A DNA stretch of 64,000 bases from Arenibacter arenosicollis. GTDB taxonomy: Bacteria > Bacteroidota > Bacteroidia > Flavobacteriales > Flavobacteriaceae. A program made the position numbers and the translations under genes. This document shows, piece by piece, positions 53,786 to 62,655 of this stretch (positions are counted from its first letter, which is position 1; each line of letters begins with the position of its first letter). The stretch spans positions 62,001 through 126,000 of the forward strand of contig NZ_JACLHY010000007.1 in assembly GCF_014397245.1 (NCBI RefSeq), read 5' to 3'. The notes beneath the pieces were generated by a model. That model had not been told where the DNA came from and made no database searches. It saw only the letters and a list, made by a program, of their open reading frames with translations.

Positions 53786-54601
53786 ATGGACAAATTACCA
53801 AAAATTGCATTACCAGTCATATTCGGTATTATAGTACTAGTAATATTAATCTCAAAATCTGCCATTACCATTGGCTCAGGTGAAGCCGGCGTGTTATATA
53901 AAACTTTTTCTGGTGGTGTGGTTACGGATGAACCACCTTTAGGTGAAGGATTCCACATTGTAGCTCCCTGGAACAAGGTTTTTATATATGAGGTTAGGCA
54001 ACAGGAAGTTTTGGAGAAAATGCAGGTACTGTCATCCAACGGGCTTGAAATTAAGTTGGAAGCTTCTGCCTGGTTTGAACCTAAAAGAGAGTTTATAGGA
54101 AAGTTGCACCAGGAAAAAGGCACGGAATACATACAACGTGTATTGTTGCCCACCATCAGGTCTGCCGCCCGAAGTGTAGTGGGAAGATATACCCCGGAAC
54201 AATTGTATTCCAGTAAAAGGGATGCCATTCAGCAAGAGATCTTTGAAGAAACCCAAAAAATCGTAGATGGACAATATATTCAGCTAAATGAAATTTTGGT
54301 TAGGGACGTAACCCTGCCCGCTACCATCAAGGAGGCAATAGAACGTAAACTTAAGCAGGAACAGGAATCCTTGGAATATGAATTTAGATTGGTTACTGCA
54401 CAGAAAGAAGCTCAAAAAGTTATCATTGAGGCTCAGGGTAAGGCAGACGCCAATACAATACTAAGTGCTTCCTTGACGGACAAAATATTACGGGATAAGG
54501 GAATTGATGCCACTATTAAATTAGCGGAATCTCCAAATTCCAAGGTTATTGTAATAGGTAGTGGCGACTCAGGTATGCCCATTATTTTAGGTAATCAATA
54601 A
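53786..54601 (+). CDS. Prohibitin/SPFH-family membrane protein
   Basis: 271 residues. N-terminal hydrophobic helix (about 8-27) as membrane anchor, then the band-7/SPFH domain (about 32-205: GSGEAGVLYKTFSGGVVTDEPPLGEGFHIVAPWNKVFIYEVRQQE, VLLPTIRSAARSVVGRYTPEQLYSSKRDAIQQEIFEETQKIV) and a charged coiled-coil part (about 190-235). Prohibitins form large ring complexes at membranes and may assist protease or lipid organisation. It follows the vWA protein by 19 bases and probably shares its transcript. Confidence 0.92.
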   Translation: MDKLPKIALPVIFGIIVLVILISKSAITIGSGEAGVLYKTFSGGVVTDEPPLGEGFHIVAPWNKVFIYEVRQQEVLEKMQVLSSNGLEIKLEASAWFEPKREFIGKLHQEKGTEYIQRVLLPTIRSAARSVVGRYTPEQLYSSKRDAIQQEIFEETQKIVDGQYIQLNEILVRDVTLPATIKEAIERKLKQEQESLEYEFRLVTAQKEAQKVIIEAQGKADANTILSASLTDKILRDKGIDATIKLAESPNSKVIVIGSGDSGMPIILGNQ

Positions 54602-54662
54602 TAATTTAACAATTTTGAAATAAATTGTACCGTATAAATTTTCCAAGGTTGAAAAATAGTTT

Positions 54663-54670
54663 TAATTTTG
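54663..54670 (+). promoter_or_regulatory. Candidate -7 box of the histidine operon
   Basis: TAATTTTG (TAnnTTTG) ends 7 bases before the leader peptide ATG at 54678, so the leader peptide would be translated from a nearly leaderless transcript. The -33 element is not clear. Confidence 0.55.
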
Positions 54671-54677
54671 TCATATC

Positions 54678-54734
54678 ATGAAAAACAACAGGACACATCA
54701 TCATCATTTCTTTACTTGCAGTCAAGCGAGCTAG
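54678..54734 (+). CDS. hisL: Histidine operon leader peptide
   Basis: An 18-residue frame: MKNNRTHHHHFFTCSQAS, stop TAG. Four consecutive CAT histidine codons (54696-54707). A terminator-like hairpin follows 31 bases after its stop, and hisG starts 109 bases after its stop. This is the classic layout of ribosome-mediated attenuation: low histidyl-tRNA stalls the ribosome on the His run and prevents the terminator. The peptide is too short for normal gene callers. Confidence 0.85.
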   Translation: MKNNRTHHHHFFTCSQAS

Positions 54735-54764
54735 GAATGTATTGTTGTATCTAAACTATATTCT

Positions 54765-54798
54765 AACCCGTTTGAGCAATCAAACGGGTTTTGTATTT
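54765..54798 (+). terminator. Attenuator terminator of the histidine operon
   Basis: AACCCGTTTG (54765-54774) pairs perfectly over 10 bp with CAAACGGGTT (54781-54790) around a 6-base loop AGCAAT, followed by TTGTATTT. It lies between hisL and hisG. A competing (antiterminator) pairing between the TAGGAAT after the hisL stop and the ATTCTA before the stem is possible with a bulge, but I cannot fold it here. Confidence 0.8.
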
Positions 54799-54843
54799 AA
54801 CATCCTGTTAGATTTGTTCAGGCCAAAAACAAAAAATTAGAAA

Positions 54844-55701
54844 ATGAAAAAAATTAGAATTGCTATCCAGAAAAGTGGCCGTCTAAATGAAGACTCACTT
54901 CAAATACTAAAAGATTGTGGAATTTCTATCGATAATGGAAAAGACCAACTTAAAGCCTCTTCCAGAAATTTCCCCTTGGAAGTTTTCTATCTTCGAAATG
55001 GAGATATCCCACAATATTTAAGGGATGGCGTAGTAGATATTGCCATTATTGGGGAAAATGTACTAATAGAAAAAGGAGAGGATATTTCAATTGCAGAGAA
55101 ATTAGGTTTTTCCAAATGCAAAGTATCTTTGGCTGTTCCTAAATCGGTAAAGTACAATTCGGTAAAAGATTTTGAAGGCAAAAAAATTGCCACATCGTAT
55201 CCAAATACCGTAAAAAACTATCTAGATAGCAAAGGAGTAAAGGCTGATCTTCATATTATTAGTGGTTCTGTGGAAATTGCACCCAATATTGGTTTGGCCG
55301 ATGCTATTTGTGATATTGTCTCAAGTGGAAGTACACTTTTCAAGAATAATTTGAAAGAAGTTGAGGTGATGTTGACCAGTGAGGCCGTACTGGCAGTTTC
55401 TCCACAAATTTCTCAGGAAGGAACGGAGTTGCTGGAAAAATTAAGATTTAGAATTCAATCCGTTTTACGTGCCAGGCAATCCAAATATGTTCTATTGAAC
55501 GCCCCTAACAATAAATTGGACGAAATTATTGGGCTGCTGCCCGGTATGAGGAGTCCTACAGTACTACCTTTGGCCGAGGAAGGTTGGAGTTCCGTACATA
55601 CTGTAATCAACAAGGATAAATTCTGGGAAGTTATCCAAGAGCTTAAAAAAGCTGGAGCTGAGGGAATACTTGTTTGCCCCATTGAAAAAATGGTGCTATA
55701 A
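54844..55701 (+). CDS. hisG: ATP phosphoribosyltransferase (long form)
   Basis: 285 residues, the long, self-contained hisG type that does not need HisZ. First step of histidine synthesis. Motifs: RIAIQKSGRLNEDSLQILKDCGI, the VDIAIIGENVLIEK region, SGSVEIAPNIGLADAICDIVSSGSTLFKNNL (PRPP site) and the C-terminal regulatory ACT-like part (about 215-285, PTVLPLAEEGWSSVHTVI) that binds histidine. It starts the operon behind an attenuator. Confidence 0.97.
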   Translation: MKKIRIAIQKSGRLNEDSLQILKDCGISIDNGKDQLKASSRNFPLEVFYLRNGDIPQYLRDGVVDIAIIGENVLIEKGEDISIAEKLGFSKCKVSLAVPKSVKYNSVKDFEGKKIATSYPNTVKNYLDSKGVKADLHIISGSVEIAPNIGLADAICDIVSSGSTLFKNNLKEVEVMLTSEAVLAVSPQISQEGTELLEKLRFRIQSVLRARQSKYVLLNAPNNKLDEIIGLLPGMRSPTVLPLAEEGWSSVHTVINKDKFWEVIQELKKAGAEGILVCPIEKMVL

Positions 55702-55712
55702 CACTTGTCCTT

Positions 55713-56144
55713 ATGACTACTACCTTTCATATGGAGCTTATCCCAAAGAAGAATATAAATGATATTTTACCTTTGGTACAAATGCTCAACAACGGTAAAT
55801 TTCCTGTTGAAATTCTTAAAAAAAGATTGCAGGATATGCTTAGGGACGGCTATCAATGTTTGGGCGTCTACGATAAAGAAGCGTTAATAGGTATATGTGG
55901 TATATGGGTTCTAAATAAATTATATGTAGGTAAACATATTGAACCTGACAATGTTTATGTATTACCGGAATATCGAAGTTCTGGAGTTGGAAAATTGATG
56001 ATGGATTGGGTATTTAATTATGCTCTAGAAATCGGATGCGATGCCTCGGAAGTTAACTGCTATATAAAAAATGAAAAAGGAATTCAGTTTTGGAATAACC
56101 AAGGTTATAAGGCCATAGGCTACCATATGCAAAAAGTATTATAG
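55713..56144 (+). CDS. GNAT-family N-acetyltransferase embedded in the his operon
   Basis: 143 residues. GNAT fold with the acetyl-CoA-binding motif in YRSSGVGKLMMDWVF (Q/RxxGxG/A) after a beta strand VYVLPE, and EVNCYIKNEKGIQFWNNQGYKAIGYHMQKVL at the C-terminus. Substrate unknown. It starts 11 bases after hisG and ends 2 bases before hisD, so it is read with the operon. It is not a known histidine biosynthesis enzyme; possible roles are modification of a pathway intermediate, detoxification, or an unrelated gene inserted by chance. Confidence 0.85.
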   Translation: MTTTFHMELIPKKNINDILPLVQMLNNGKFPVEILKKRLQDMLRDGYQCLGVYDKEALIGICGIWVLNKLYVGKHIEPDNVYVLPEYRSSGVGKLMMDWVFNYALEIGCDASEVNCYIKNEKGIQFWNNQGYKAIGYHMQKVL

Positions 56145-56146
56145 CA

Positions 56147-57430
56147 ATGAATAAGATATACAATCCACAGAGAGCAGATTGGAAGGCAGTTTTAAAACGG
56201 CCGACCCAAACTATTGCCGATATCGAGGATATGGTCGATGCCGTTTTTATGGAAATAAAGACTGGCGGCGATTCCGTGGTAAGCAACTATACCAAAAAAT
56301 ATGATGGAGTGGTTTTACCGGATGCATTTGTATCTCGCTTAGAGATAGAGGAGTCTGAAAAAATGATTTCAAGCGATTTAAAGTCGGCTATTCAACAGGC
56401 CAAAAACAATATTGAAATATTTCATAAAGCACAAAAAACGGATAAAGTTTCCGTAGAAACTGCTAATGGTGTCCAATGCTGGCAAGAAAAACGTCCCATA
56501 CAAAAAGTGGGATTGTACATTCCCGGAGGTACGGCTCCTTTGTTTTCTACGATCTTAATGCTTGCAGTACCAGCAAATATTGCGGGCTGCCAAGAAATTA
56601 TCCTGTGTACCCCGCCCAACAAGGAAGGAAAAGTTCATCCGGCCATATTATATACGGCCAATCTATGCGGAGTTACCAAAATATTTAAAGTTGGAGGCAT
56701 TCAGGCCATTGCCAGTATGACTTTTGGAACAGAAACCATTCCTCCCGTCTATAAAATATTTGGGCCAGGAAATCAATTTGTAACCGTTGCCAAACAAATA
56801 GCCACAAAATATGGTGTAGCCATTGACATGCCTGCAGGTCCCAGTGAACTTTTGGTGATGGCCGATGATACCGCCAATGCAGCATTTGTAGCCTCAGATC
56901 TATTGAGCCAGGCAGAACATGGTGTGGACAGTCAGGTTATTTTAGTATCCACTTCCAAAAATTTTATAGATGCCGTTGAAGCGGAGGTAGCTGAGCAAAT
57001 TAAGGATTTGCCGAGAAAAGATATAGCCGAAAAGGCTATAGCCAATAGCAAATTAATTTACGTGGATAGCCAACAGACGGCTGTAGATCTAATCAATGAG
57101 TACGGTCCGGAACATTACATTCTATGTGTTAAAAATGAAGAATTTTTCCTAAGACAAACCTATAATGCCGGTTCTGTTTTTATTGGGAATTACACTCCAG
57201 AAAGTGCAGGGGATTACGCATCTGGAACCAATCATACGTTACCGACCAATGGATATGCGAAACAGTATAGTGGCGTAAACCTGGATAGTTTTATGAAAAG
57301 TATGACTTTTCAAAAAATATCGGAAAAAGGAATTCAGGAAATTGGCAATACCATAGAGTTGATGGCCGAAGCGGAAGGGCTGCAAGCCCATAAGAATGCA
57401 GTAACCCTGAGATTGAACAGTTTAAAATAA
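56147..57430 (+). CDS. hisD: Histidinol dehydrogenase
   Basis: 427 residues, standard length. NAD-dependent, zinc enzyme for the last two steps, histidinol to histidine. Motifs: VGLYIPGGTAPLFSTILMLAVPANIAGC, KIFGPGNQFVTVAKQIA, IDMPAGPSELLVMADD, the zinc site SQAEHG, YGPEHYI with the catalytic Glu/His, and SAGDYASGTNHTLPT with SGV near the C-terminus. ATG start 2 bases after the GNAT gene. Confidence 0.97.
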   Translation: MNKIYNPQRADWKAVLKRPTQTIADIEDMVDAVFMEIKTGGDSVVSNYTKKYDGVVLPDAFVSRLEIEESEKMISSDLKSAIQQAKNNIEIFHKAQKTDKVSVETANGVQCWQEKRPIQKVGLYIPGGTAPLFSTILMLAVPANIAGCQEIILCTPPNKEGKVHPAILYTANLCGVTKIFKVGGIQAIASMTFGTETIPPVYKIFGPGNQFVTVAKQIATKYGVAIDMPAGPSELLVMADDTANAAFVASDLLSQAEHGVDSQVILVSTSKNFIDAVEAEVAEQIKDLPRKDIAEKAIANSKLIYVDSQQTAVDLINEYGPEHYILCVKNEEFFLRQTYNAGSVFIGNYTPESAGDYASGTNHTLPTNGYAKQYSGVNLDSFMKSMTFQKISEKGIQEIGNTIELMAEAEGLQAHKNAVTLRLNSLK

Positions 57431-57477
57431 TAAGACCGAAGTATTGAGCTGGCACAGCACGATACTAGCCGGATAAA

Positions 57478-58557
57478 ATGCCGAAAAGCATAAATAGAAT
57501 GAAAACAAAAATATTCAACATTAACAACATAGTTCGGGAGAACGTAAAAGGATTAAGTCCCTATTCCTCTGCAAGGGATGAATATGTTTCAGATGGTTCC
57601 AAAATGGTATTTTTAGACGCCAATGAAAATCCTTTTGAATCTGGTGTAAATAGATATCCGGATCCACATCAAAGACGCTTAAAAGAAGTCTTGGCAGAAA
57701 AAAAGGGAGTTTCCACACAACAACTTCTTTTAGGGAATGGTAGTGATGAGGTGTTGGATTTAATTTTTCGGGCCTTTTGCGAACCCAAAGAGGACAATAT
57801 TATCTCCTTACCACCCACATACGGTATGTATAAGGTACTTGCAGGAATAAACAATGTGGAGAATAGAGAGGTATTATTGACAAAAGAATTTGAACCCAAT
57901 GTACCAGAAATACTGAAAGTAGCTGATGGTAAGAGTAAATTACTATTTCTCTGCTCGCCAAACAATCCCACCGGAAATAGCTTTTCCAGTAGCAGCGTTA
58001 GGGAGTTGTTGGACAATTTTAATGGATTGGTAGTTATAGATGAAGCCTATATCGATTTCTCAAGTGAAGTAAGTTGGATTTCGGAATTGCAGAATTATCC
58101 CAATCTAGTGGTAACCCAAACCTTATCCAAAGCCTATGGTATGGCAGGTATAAGATTAGGGACCTGTTATGCTTCTGAGGAAATAATAGCTGTATTAAAT
58201 AAAATAAAACCACCATATAACGTAAATGAATTAACGCAGCAAAGAGCTTTGGAGCGGGTTTTGGACGTTAATGCGGTTAATTTGGAGGTAATAGATATTT
58301 TAACGGAAAGGGAGGCCCTTTTTAATGTGTTGCACCAAGTAGAGTTTGTAGAAAAAATATATCAAACTGACGCAAATTTTATTCTCGCCAAAGTGGATGA
58401 TGCTACCAGAAGATACAATCAACTTTTGAAAATGGGTATCGTAGTTCGCAACAGGACCTCGCAGCCACTTTGTGAAAATACACTGAGATTTACCGTGGGA
58501 ACCAAAGAGGAAAATAAGAAATTAATAAGCGCATTGCAAAATATAACAACCTTATAA
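57478..58557 (+). CDS. hisC: Histidinol-phosphate aminotransferase
   Basis: 359 residues from ATG 57478; ATG at codon 8 (57499) would give the more usual N-terminus [13 protein letters not shown] and may be the true start. Fold-type I PLP enzyme: [75 protein letters not shown] and the PLP lysine in [13 protein letters not shown]. Transfers the amino group to imidazole acetol phosphate. Confidence 0.95.
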
Positions 58558-58561
58558 TATT

Positions 58562-59740
58562 ATGAGTCCGGATAAGAACACTAATGCCGCCAAACGAAAT
58601 AAAAATGGTAAAAAAGTGCTGTTTATAGATAGGGATGGTACCATTATTAAAGAAACCATAGACGAGCAGATAGATGCTTTTGAAAAAATGGTATTTTATC
58701 CCAAGGCATTTACCTTTTTGGGGAAAATAGCCAAGGAATTGGATTATGAATTGGTAATGATTACCAATCAGGATGGCTTGGGTACCGATATTTTTCCTGA
58801 AGACACTTTTTGGCCGGTACATAATTTTATATTGAAATCGTTCGAAAATGAAGGAGTTGTATTTGATAAGGTATTCCTTGATCGAACTTTCCCCCATGAA
58901 AATGCCAATACGCGAAAGCCCGGAACAGGTTTGTTAACGGCTTATTTTTCGGAAGATTACGATTTGGAAAATTCCTTTGTCATAGGGGACCGATTGACCG
59001 ATGTTGAATTGGCCAAAAATTTAGGGGCCAAAGGAATCTTTATAAATGACAATACCAATTTAGGAAAAGGGGAAATATCCGTTAAAAGAGAAGAATTGGA
59101 TAATTACATAGCCCTGGAGAGCAATGATTGGGAAAAAATATACGAGTTTTTAAAATTGAAAGATCGGGTTTCTGAAATAACCCGTAAAACCAATGAAACC
59201 GATATTTTCATTAAACTTAATTTGGACGGTACCGGAAAGAGTGATATTAGCACCGGGTTGGACTTCTTTGACCATATGTTGGATCAATTGGCCCGTCATG
59301 GCCAAATGGACCTTGAAATCAAAGTTAAAGGCGATCTGGAAGTAGACGAACATCATACCATAGAAGATACGGCAATAGCATTGGGCGAGGTGTTTCATAA
59401 AGCTTTGGGCAATAAATTGGGAATCGAAAGATATGGTTTCTGTTTGCCTATGGACGACTGTTTGGCACAGGTTGCCATCGATTTTGGTGGACGAAACTGG
59501 TTGGTTTGGGAAACGGAATTCAAAAGGGAAATGATAGGAAAAATGCCAACGGAAATGTTTTATCATTTCTTTAAATCGTTTACGGATGGAGCCAAAGCCA
59601 ATTTAAATGTTAAGGCTGAAGGTAATAATGAACACCATAAAATAGAGGCCATTTTCAAAGCTTTTGCCAAGGCAATCAAGGTGGCCGTGAAACGTGACGT
59701 AGAAAAAATGGTGCTACCAAGTACCAAAGGAGTTTTATAG
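58562..59740 (+). CDS. hisB: Bifunctional histidinol-phosphatase / imidazoleglycerol-phosphate dehydratase
   Basis: 392 residues. N-terminal HAD phosphatase (about 17-175) with DxD nucleophile motif FIDRDGT (D23, D25), the zinc-type loop and [19 protein letters not shown]-terminal IGPD domain (about 200-392) with the His/Glu-rich metal sites [15 protein letters not shown] and [13 protein letters not shown]. Catalyses steps 6 and 8. The fused form is known from enterobacteria and Bacteroidetes. Starts 4 bases after hisC. Confidence 0.96.
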
Positions 59741-59773
59741 GAGTAAATAAATCTGTCCGAAGGACAACTAAAA

Positions 59774-60364
59774 ATGAAAATAGTAATTATTGATTACGGA
59801 GCCGGAAATATTCAGAGTATTAAGTTTGCCTTTCAGCGCTTGGGGTATGAGGCTATTTTGAGCCGGGATGCCGATGAGATTATGGCGGCCGATAAAGTTA
59901 TATTTCCGGGAGTGGGGGAGGCAAGCAGTGCCATGAAGAAATTGCGTGAAAGTAAATTGGACCAGATTATTCCTAAACTAAAACAGCCAGTATTGGGAAT
60001 TTGCCTGGGAATGCAATTAATGTGTCATTCTTCGGAAGAAGGCGATACACAAGGCCTTGGTATTTTTGATGTAGATGTGGTTAAATTCTCCAATAAGGTC
60101 AAGGTTCCGCAGATAGGGTGGAATCAAATTACCAATTTAAAATCCGACCTATTCAACAACATAAAGGAAAAGGAACATATTTATCTAGTACATAGTTTTT
60201 ATGCCCCAATTTGCGAGGAAACAATTGCCGAAGCTGAATACGGCTTGGGATATAGTGCCGCTTTAAAAAAAGATAATTTTTATGGAACTCAATTCCACCC
60301 AGAAAAGAGCAGCGAGGTTGGAGAAAAGATCCTTAGGAATTTTATTGATAGTGCCACTAGTTAA
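59774..60364 (+). CDS. hisH: Imidazole glycerol phosphate synthase, glutaminase subunit
   Basis: 196 residues. Class I glutamine amidotransferase: nucleophile C77 in PVLGICLGMQLMC, then H175 and E177 in GTQFHPEKSSEVG; IDYGAGNIQSI at the N-terminus and FPGVGEASSAM for the oxyanion part. Supplies ammonia to HisF. A small hairpin TGTCC-GAA-GGACA (59754-59766) sits in front of its ATG. Confidence 0.96.
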   Translation: MKIVIIDYGAGNIQSIKFAFQRLGYEAILSRDADEIMAADKVIFPGVGEASSAMKKLRESKLDQIIPKLKQPVLGICLGMQLMCHSSEEGDTQGLGIFDVDVVKFSNKVKVPQIGWNQITNLKSDLFNNIKEKEHIYLVHSFYAPICEETIAEAEYGLGYSAALKKDNFYGTQFHPEKSSEVGEKILRNFIDSATS

Positions 60365-60376
60365 TACTGTATAAAC

Positions 60377-61105
60377 ATGAGAATAATACCTGCAATAGAT
60401 ATAATTGAAGGAAAATGTGTAAGACTGTCCAAAGGAGACTACGACACCAAGAAAATCTATAATGAGAATCCCTTGGAGGTGGCCAAAGAGTTTGAAGCCC
60501 ATGGAATTGAATACTTGCATTTGGTAGATTTGGACGGGGCTAAATCCAAACATATCGTAAATCATAAAGTGTTGGAAAAAATAGCTTCCAATACCAACTT
60601 GAAAATAGATTTTGGTGGCGGGCTAAAGACCGATGATGATCTAAGGATCGCCTTTGAAAGTGGGGCCAATCAAATCACTGGCGGGAGCATTGCCGTTAAG
60701 GACAGGGATACTTTTATTTCCTGGATCAACAAATACAGTCCTGAGAAGATTATTCTTGGAGCGGACGCAAAAGATGAGATGGTAGCTGTATCGGGTTGGA
60801 TGGAAGAATCCAAGGAAGAGTTGATTCCCTTTATCCAAACGTATCAAAAAGAAGGTATTAGAGCAGTAATTTGTACCGATATAAGTAAAGATGGCATGTT
60901 AGAGGGTCCTTCTTTTGATCTGTACCGTAAAATTTTGGAGGCTTGCGGCCCAAATATCTTACTGATAGCCAGTGGAGGAATTTCAACCTTTGAAGAACTT
61001 CCCAAATTGGCCGAATTGGGTTGCGAAGGAACCATAATTGGAAAAGCCATTTATGAAAATAGAATTAGTTTAAAACAATTGGAAAAATTTATTCTCGACA
61101 TCTAA
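60377..61105 (+). CDS. hisA: ProFAR isomerase (1-(5-phosphoribosyl)-5-[(5-phosphoribosylamino)methylideneamino]imidazole-4-carboxamide isomerase)
   Basis: 242 residues, TIM barrel. Catalytic Asp residues in [14 protein letters not shown] (D8) and [13 protein letters not shown] (near 170), with VDLDGAK and the phosphate-binding FGGGLK and IASGGIS loops. Step 4 of the pathway. 12 bases after hisH. Confidence 0.96.
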
Positions 61106-61198
61106 TAAATATTAAGCTTGTTGTTGAATTATTGGGCGCCATTTATAGTTTTCAAGACCGTAAGTAGCAGCTTAAATTTCCAAAAATAAATGTAGCAA

Positions 61199-61954
61199 AT
61201 GTTAACAAAAAGAATAATCCCTTGTTTGGATATTAAAAATGGTAGGACTGTAAAAGGGATAAACTTTGTGGATTTGCGGGACGCAGGTGATCCAGTGGAA
61301 CTTGCCGAGATCTACGCCAAGTCCGGCGCGGACGAATTGGTCTTTTTGGATATTTCGGCCACGGAGGAGGGAAGAAGAACTTTGGCCGATTTGGTATTGC
61401 GGGTTGCCGAAAAGGTAAATATTCCTTTTACCGTAGGTGGTGGTATTTCGTCTGTGAAGGATGTGGATATATTATTACATAACGGAGCGGATAAAGTATC
61501 CATAAATTCATCCGCCGTCAAAAATCCTCAATTGATCAACGATCTGGTAGCCAAATTTGGCTCGCAATGTATTGTTGTGGCCATAGATGCCAAACAGATC
61601 GATGGGGAATGGATAGTGCATTTGGTAGGAGGGAAGGTACCCACAGAACTAAATCTTTTTACTTGGGCGAAGGAGGTTGAAAAACGTGGGGCTGGAGAAA
61701 TTTTATTTACCTCCATGAACCATGATGGAACAAAGGATGGGTTTGCCAATGAGGCTTTGGCCAAATTATCAACAGAATTGAACATTCCAATAATAGCATC
61801 GGGTGGGGCAGGAAATATGCAACATTTTACGGATACATTTGTTGAAGGAAAGGCAGATGCAGCTCTGGCTGCAAGCGTTTTTCATTTTAAGGAAATAGAA
61901 ATCAAAGACTTAAAGGAAGAGTTAAAAAGAAATAATATCCCCGTTAGGCTATAA
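61199..61954 (+). CDS. hisF: Imidazole glycerol phosphate synthase, cyclase subunit
   Basis: 251 residues, TIM barrel. Catalytic residues in [19 protein letters not shown] (D11) and [13 protein letters not shown] (near 130), with [14 protein letters not shown], the VGGGISSV and [10 protein letters not shown] loops. Forms a complex with HisH and joins histidine to purine synthesis by releasing AICAR. ATG start; a 93-base gap separates it from hisA. Confidence 0.96.
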
Positions 61955-62019
61955 TCAATTTTATTATCAGCAAGGTGGATTAATCCAAACACTTCCTATA
62001 ACAAACCTAAAATTACATT

Positions 62020-62655
62020 ATGGAATCCAAAAGCATGAACATAGACTTCAACAAAAACAATGACGGCTTGGTCCCGGCAATAGTACAGGATGCAAATACC
62101 AAAAATGTACTTATGTTGGGATATATGAACCAGGAAGCATATAACAAAACAATAGACAGTAGTAAAGTAACCTTCTATAGCCGCACAAAAAGCAGATTAT
62201 GGACCAAAGGAGAGGAAAGCGGAAATTTTTTGAATCTAGTGGACATTAAATTGGACTGCGATAACGATACCCTGCTTGTCATGGTAGATCCTGTTGGACC
62301 AACCTGCCATAAAGGAACCGATACCTGTTGGGGCGAAGAAAATAAATCTACATTCGGGTTTATTACAGAACTGGAAAATATTATTCAGAACAGAAAAGAT
62401 CAGGCCGATGGTATAATTCCGATTCCCGAAGGAGTTAAACCCAGCTATGTTTCCTCACTATTTAAGAGCGGTATCAATAAAGTAGCACAGAAAGTAGGGG
62501 AAGAAGCTGTAGAGGTGGTAATTGAGGCCAAGGATGATAATGATCAACTGTTCAAAGATGAAAGTGCAGATCTATTGTTCCATTATCTAATATTGTTACA
62601 GGCTAAAGGGTTTAAACTTCAGGATATTGTAAAGGTTCTGGAGTCGCGCCATTAA
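62020..62655 (+). CDS. hisIE: Phosphoribosyl-AMP cyclohydrolase / phosphoribosyl-ATP pyrophosphohydrolase
   Basis: 211 residues. HisI domain (about 10-110) with LVPAIVQDANTKNVLMLGYMNQEAYNKT, ESGNFLNLVDIKLDCDNDTLLV and the metal-binding Cys/His in GPTCHKGTDTCWG; HisE domain (about 115-211) with YVSSLFKSGINKVAQKVGEEAVEVVIEAKD. Steps 2 and 3. ATG 62020; codon 6 is a second possible start. Last gene of the operon. Confidence 0.96.
   Translation: MESKSMNIDFNKNNDGLVPAIVQDANTKNVLMLGYMNQEAYNKTIDSSKVTFYSRTKSRLWTKGEESGNFLNLVDIKLDCDNDTLLVMVDPVGPTCHKGTDTCWGEENKSTFGFITELENIIQNRKDQADGIIPIPEGVKPSYVSSLFKSGINKVAQKVGEEAVEVVIEAKDDNDQLFKDESADLLFHYLILLQAKGFKLQDIVKVLESRH

Follow-up and report, generated by a model that had tools for sequence, protein, structure and literature searches.

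Four described systems come closest to the element treated here. Guerin et al. 2021 reported structured 5' elements of hisG and pheA in Flavobacteriaceae, and the available excerpts of that account also give clues to leader-peptide attenuation upstream of flavobacterial amino-acid operons (PMC9723704). The hisL leader of E. coli and Salmonella is a short ORF with a His run, followed by a terminator before the first his gene and by alternative pairings that the ribosome sets (PMC3896937, as excerpted). Among leaderless systems, the S. meliloti trpL leader ORF heads an RNA that starts at its ATG and controls a classical terminator/antiterminator (PMC7298713, as excerpted), and in the mycobacterial polycysteine attenuators (Canestrari et al. 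2020) consecutive codons for the sensed amino acid in a leaderless ORF control the downstream genes (as described in the review PMC9031893). Two parts of the framing given to this locus in the original prediction need to be amended. Attenuation had been presented as best described in proteobacteria, while a flavobacterial hisG 5' element and clues to attenuation were already in print (PMC9723704), and ribosome loading on a leaderless mRNA in time for attenuation had been raised as an interesting question, while the Sinorhizobium (PMC7298713) and mycobacterial (PMC9031893) leaders were already known.

The window, by which we mean the whole stretch of 64,000 nucleotides of Arenibacter arenosicollis DNA that was analyzed, contains a locus that resembles each of these systems in part. 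From its sequence and that of its relatives we read it as an attenuator of his operon transcription that works through a translating ribosome and has a near-leaderless leader ORF, and we consider this reading very likely to be correct.

Anatomy of the hisG upstream region

The 18-codon frame with four consecutive His codons that had been predicted before hisG is present in the letters, with its ATG at 54678, its CAT codons at 54696-54707 and a TAG stop at 54732-54734. A His-codon-rich leader ORF precedes the matching biosynthetic operon, as is expected of an attenuator. The products of hisG, hisD, hisC, hisB, hisH, hisA, hisF, and hisIE all score above their NCBIfam model cut-offs (Table 1), and gene order and strand suggest that these genes are transcribed as a single unit. 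Between hisG and hisD there is an ORF (55713-56144) with NCBIfam matches to acetyltransferases, all of them below cut-off. The upstream neighbor gene is on the same strand and ends at 54601. The HisG of the window shares 98% identity with its A. catalasegens counterpart (L002) and clusters with three Arenibacter rows in the tree.

Of the perfect 10-bp terminator hairpin that had been predicted before hisG, the presence holds and the length does not, as the stem is 11 bp (AACCCGTTTGA-GCAA-TCAAACGGGTT at 54765-54790, then TTGTATTTAA). This places an intrinsic terminator between the leader ORF and the first gene, again as in an attenuator. A scan of 54550-54860 shows no other terminator-like site (one found, against a mean of 0.2 in shuffles), the fold of 54678-54810 beats all 200 dinucleotide shuffles (z -5.46), and RNAalifold applied to 50 loci returned the terminator as the sole structure. 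The single-sequence fold also includes a long-range pairing of 54687-54693 with 54804-54810, the downstream arm of which is not kept identical in L002, L003, and L004. The stretch from the leader stop to the terminator (54737-54764) is well conserved in relatives too (TGTATTGT..GTA), and, judged by eye, many loci could form a small TTGTA/TACAA hairpin within it.

Table 1. Features of the his leader region and operon in the window, with the basis of each assignment.
Feature	Position	Strand	Basis
-33/-35 element, TTT at -35 to -33	54640..54642	+	T 99-100% in 69 box-aligned loci
A-tract AAAAATA between promoter elements	54652..54658	+	A 90-100% at -23 to -20, 69 loci
-7 box TAATTTTG	54663..54670	+	TA[ACT][ACT]TTT[G/A], 69/81 loci; consensus from PMC6847099
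Predicted 5' UTR, start 54675 or 54676, 3 or 2 nt	54675..54677	+	F. johnsoniae spacing (inferred)
Leader ORF MKNNRTHHHHFFTCSQAS and stop	54678..54734	+	Direct reading of sequence
Regulatory His codons, four CAT	54696..54707	+	HHH or longer in 79/81 loci (best 80 of 528 relatives plus window)
Hairpin 1:2 (predicted), core CTTGC 54715-54719 with GCGAG 54726-54730, outer 54709-54712 with 54733-54736	54709..54736	+	Predicted, -8.9 kcal/mol in window
Segment 2 TCAAGCG, antiterminator 5' strand within last leader codons	54722..54728	+	Can pair with segment 3 in 98% of 350 cells
Intrinsic terminator 3:4, 11 bp, GCAA loop, T-rich tail to ~54799	54765..54790	+	Sequence and terminator scan
Segment 3 CGTTTGA, common to antiterminator and terminator	54769..54775	+	CCCGTTTGA in 81/81 loci
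hisG, first structural gene, ATG 54844	54844..55701	+	TIGR00070 187 bits, cut-off 75.75
Operon remainder: acetyltransferase-like ORF, hisD, hisC, hisB, hisH, hisA, hisF, hisIE	55713..62655	+	NCBIfam

Conservation, alternative pairing and ribosome register

Upstream regions were compared for the window and the best 80 of 528 hisG relatives, ranked on HisG similarity alone; locus counts are taken over related genomes and are uncorrected for kinship. The His run and the hairpin were expected to recur in related genomes, and both do so in all 81 loci of this set (best 80 of 528 plus the window). Each has a short ORF with adjacent His upstream of hisG, with at least three His in a row in 79, and each carries the terminator core CCCGTTTGA between leader and hisG. 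In an alignment of 50 of the 81 loci, picked by hand to remove near-duplicates, CCCGTTTGAG is unchanged throughout.

Folding had been proposed as a way to find a mutually exclusive antiterminator, and one was found, in that the end of the leader (segment 2) is complementary, with one G-U pair, to the 5' arm of the terminator (segment 3). The 2:3 pairing can form in 98.0% of the 350 cells of the 50-row alignment, a figure that drops to 20-56% once the partner is shifted by 1-3 columns. Its energy averages -14.3 kcal/mol over the 81 loci, whereas shuffling the leader ends gives -7.2 and recoding them at random with synonymous codons gives -9.1; no more than 5 of 100 shuffles are as good in 70 of the 81 loci, and no more than 5 of 100 recodings in 63. 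The window itself is on the weak side, with an energy of -11.0 that 6 shuffles and 4 recodings, out of 100 each, match or better. No compensatory change was found in the 2:3 helix within the close family (50-row alignment), because segments 2 and 3 hardly vary there.

The position of segment 2, which was recognized by pattern in 78 of the 81 loci, is fixed on both sides. The distance from the first base of the last His codon to the first base of segment 2 is 17 nt in 76 of these loci and 16 nt in 2, and segment 2 ends 3 nt before the leader stop in all 78, despite His runs of three or four codons. A ribosome covers about 12 nt past the first A-site base, which is the figure used in our nascent-RNA folding; given this coverage, a ribosome stalled on His leaves segment 2 exposed and one at the stop covers it. 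In the folding of RNA up to the terminator loop, with segment 4 absent, a ribosome placed on the final His codon gives 2:3 a mean probability of 0.98, and all 81 loci exceed 0.5. With no ribosome the mean is 0.67 (0.41 in the window), so tight termination is not predicted when translation does not take place. With a ribosome at the stop the value is 0 by construction, because covered bases were omitted. By pairing potential and geometry, antiterminator and terminator exclude each other, and the former lies in register with a ribosome halted at the control codons.

A hairpin 1:2 is also predicted. Its region folds with -7.3 kcal/mol on average, and the exact pairs of the window are retained in 70.9% of cells over 50 loci, which is less than for 2:3; in the same loci, compensatory changes in 1:2 show no excess over shuffles, whether counted as pairs or as types.

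For comparison beyond the close family we used a phylum sample of 90 hisG loci, made up of the 30 best-scoring and 60 hand-chosen from the matches, of 252 genomes with hisG. A rough automatic pass for the antiterminator found leader and terminator in 55 of 90 loci and left 35 unscored. At a threshold of 10 of 200 shuffles, the leader end matches the terminator, which in these other families is unrelated to that of the close family, in 26 of the 55 scored loci, while 29 fail. Family f4 has GCTTACC-type terminator arms and leaders that end in GGTAAGC or a variant spanning the stop codon, and 6 of its 7 scored loci pass; f16 has CCCCG-type arms (3 of 4 pass), f34 passes in its one locus (1/1), and f5 in 1 of 4 (L108, CTACCTG with CAGGTAG). 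Both pairing sides, the leader end and the terminator arm, change between families. Some automatic picks are wrong by eye, such as a second overlapping ORF in L113 and L138. This ORF, MHVNHHILKPV, occurs between the His leader and hisG in the Flavobacterium-type loci L113, L126, L127, L133, and L138; its stop falls within the terminator 5' arm, and it may be a chance occurrence.

Promoter, predicted 5' end and distribution of the layout

The TAnnTTTG box reported seven bases before the leader ATG is indeed there, as TAATTTTG at 54663-54670 with the ATG at 54678. A box in this position is found in 69 of the 81 loci (best 80 of 528 plus the window), at a gap of 6 (one locus), 7 (54), or 8 nt (14), compared with a box at gaps 5-9 in 2.5% of dinucleotide shuffles; if only a final G is accepted, the counts are 27 of 81 loci against 0.9% of shuffles. 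The final G is nearly invariant in F. johnsoniae promoters (PMC6847099, as excerpted), but A takes its place in 42 of the 69 near boxes; the box of the window has the G. The 12 loci with no near box are nine from Aquimarina, two from Kordia, and one from another flavobacterium. Transcripts of F. johnsoniae begin 4 or 5 nt past the box, and promoters there also have AT-rich motifs around -18 and -28 (PMC6847099, as excerpted). With a box 6-8 nt before the ATG, this spacing gives a predicted 5' UTR of 2-4 nt, and in the window the leader transcript would be near-leaderless, with a start 2-3 nt before the ATG. A transcription start downstream of the leader had been named as a finding that would contradict the prediction; a strict TAHHTTTG occurs between leader and hisG in 2 of the 81 loci and is absent there in the window.

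Other promoter candidates were considered and rejected. TAGATTTG at 54809-54816 (also in L004) carries a G at a position where F. johnsoniae promoters almost never have one, the three sigma-70-type sites in 54550-54860 are all on the minus strand, and in Muricauda-type loci a further TAATTTTG, 50 nt upstream of the near box, appears by eye to belong to the coding end of the gene before it. A palindrome-like GTTCAATTTTGAAC or similar sequence is visible by eye just upstream of the promoter in L030, L031, L036, and L044 and is perhaps a regulator site.

Taken at face value, and with the predicted hairpin 1:2, the arrangement would be that of a classical 1:2/2:3/3:4 attenuator. RNA polymerase would start about 2-4 nt before the leader ATG, as the footprinted promoter suggests, and a ribosome would initiate at the 5'-proximal AUG. 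When charged His-tRNA is scarce, the ribosome would stall on the His codons with its leading edge just short of segment 2, which would be free to pair with the terminator 5' arm as the antiterminator 2:3, and transcription would continue into hisG. When His-tRNA is plentiful, the ribosome would reach the stop, 3 nt past segment 2, and cover segment 2, so that the terminator 3:4 would form. If no ribosome loads, hairpin 1:2 would partly hide segment 2. The observed anatomy, conservation, pairing potential, register, and promoter footprint support the His attenuator originally predicted, and from them we infer the start site, translation of the peptide, a response to histidine, and the kinetics of the switch.

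How common such a layout is can be judged from the same genome and from the phylum. Leaderless mRNAs make up 5.5% in F. psychrophilum (PMC9723704), and in B. thetaiotaomicron ~3.7% of 5' UTRs measure less than 10 nt (PMC7366714), according to the available parts of these reports. As a genome control we took 264 ORFs of at least 200 aa from the window and 400 kb of the same genome, with the first ATG as predicted start. A strict box lies within 60 nt of 43 of these, with a gap of 4-10 in 6 of the 43; for a relaxed box the figure is 15 of 74. The trp leader of the same genome (MKNMVSNTWWWSNLRTTS, with a Trp run, before trpE, L200) has a strict box at gap 7, and for its ilv leader (MKINVNIINVVIIVP, Ile/Val-rich, before ilvD, L202) a relaxed box stands at gap 5; both leaders are followed by a terminator. 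In the other loci of this genome that were scanned, no amino-acid leader was recognized apart from that of pheA. The pheA leader (L175, reverse strand) reads MTKQYFWNGFYFYFFFKGGRGLF, with a possible longer start, and Phe/Tyr-rich leader ORFs occur in 22 of 28 pheA upstream regions (L172-L199), most with a terminator behind. A Trp-run leader precedes trpE in 29 of 30 flavobacterial loci, with a gap of at most 10 in 15 of the 29 (14 strict boxes, 1 relaxed) and of 12-20 in 14.

In the phylum sample, 84 of the 90 hisG loci have a His-rich leader ORF and 57 have a strict box within 60 nt. Applied to regions upstream of pheA, trpE, and ilvD, the same ORF criterion selects 0 of 84, and applied to shuffled regions it selects 3 of 58. 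The gap is 2-10 in 21 loci, from families f1, f4, f5, f8, f9, f10, and f23, where mononucleotide shuffles of this sample give such a box at 0.3% per start. All 15 loci from f2, f3, and f16 have a longer gap or lack a strict box, as do 27 of the 28 sampled from f1; four f1 loci that lack a short strict-box gap have a relaxed box at 7-8. The Flavobacterium-type, Aquimarina, and Kordia his leaders do not have the near-leaderless layout. Four of the 12 leaders in f23 (another class of the phylum), in L091, L097, L103, and L105, begin with GTG exactly 4 nt past a TAHHTTTG box; they are long, at 25-29 aa, and His-rich. Neither inspection by eye nor the automatic scan revealed an intrinsic terminator in f23 leaders, whose mechanism may differ from that of the window attenuator. 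The near-leaderless trait is recurrent and not universal, and attenuation can do without a short 5' UTR.

Competing readings and relation to known systems

The hairpin could in principle be the ordinary terminator of the upstream gene, which ends on the same strand at 54601, and the His ORF a product of chance. This is exceedingly improbable given that the His run, the register, and the antiterminator pairing are conserved and that the same ORF criterion selects 0 of 84 other upstream regions; the conservation refutes such an account, unless leader translation turns out to have no effect on hisG expression. We give as little credence to the idea that a T-box or a different leader RNA, trans-acting or tRNA-binding, exerts the control in place of a translating ribosome. 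Our searches found no support for it, and a His run inside an ORF requires translation. Rfam release 15 has no match in the window at gathering score, enterobacterial-type leaders included, the T-box covariance model has none in the window, and the 11 weak matches in 54600-54900 at E up to 10 are all implausible and include no leader family, so a T-box or other Rfam leader was rejected.

Other readings keep the attenuator and dispute its 5' end. A promoter further upstream would give the leader an ordinary 5' UTR, and both the additional TATTTTTG that some Maribacter-type loci carry about 57 nt upstream of the leader ATG and the lack of the final G in 42 of 69 near boxes fit that idea; it nevertheless seems unlikely, as 69 of 81 loci have the near box in line with its -35 TTT and the A-tract, and the window has a strict near box with no further strict box upstream within the 320 nt before hisG. 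A short 5' UTR could also be incidental, a consequence of compact promoters that plays no part in timing, which we regard as having nearly even prospects. The same leader and terminator are kept in Flavobacterium-type, Aquimarina, and Kordia loci with gaps of 16-36 nt, and flavobacterial trp leaders are evenly split (a gap of up to 10 nt in 15 of 29, of 12-20 nt in 14). In this genome, however, only 6 of 43 strict-box ORFs (15 of 74 relaxed) have a gap of 4-10, while the gaps of the his, trp, and ilv leaders are 7, 7, and 5, and the gap of 6-8 is maintained across 69 loci. More tentatively, Bacteroidota amino-acid attenuators may be selectively built on leaderless or near-leaderless leaders for ribosome-polymerase timing, because a 5'-terminal start codon would let a ribosome engage as the RNA emerges; his, trp, and ilv leaders would then form a natural leaderless class that recurs across the phylum. 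If so, the f23 GTG 4 nt past the box would have its predicted start site on the codon itself.

Bacteroidota initiate translation without Shine-Dalgarno sites, and the his attenuator, as read here, would offer a conserved and tractable example in such a phylum. Simple reporters could relate the speed of initiation at a 5' end to attenuation and gauge how closely transcription and translation are coupled in these bacteria. The short his, trp, ilv, and phe leader ORFs may constitute a recurrent class of near-leaderless messages.

The hisG element of Guerin et al. 2021 occupies the same position upstream of hisG and is conserved in other genera, and it is very probably the same element as that of the window; the leader sequence, the pairing scheme, and the 5' UTR are not among the features described in the available part of that account (PMC9723704). 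The separate parts of the arrangement are each known. A search of open-licence PMC articles, which is weak evidence of absence, returned no paper on near-leaderless attenuator leaders in Bacteroidota or on their recurrence as a combination. The enterobacterial his leader has an ordinary 5' arrangement, unlike the window leader with its predicted start at 2-4 nt and no Shine-Dalgarno site. Seven of the 18 residues of hisL are His (PMC3896937, as excerpted), whereas the window leader has four in an unrelated sequence with no Rfam match. The mycobacterial attenuators differ in sensing cysteine and in belonging to Actinomycetota, and the likeness to them concerns the leader ORF. The S. meliloti trpL leader senses Trp in an alphaproteobacterium, and its transcription start has been measured at the ATG (PMC7298713, as excerpted), whereas the start of the leader treated here is predicted to lie 2-4 nt upstream of the ATG.
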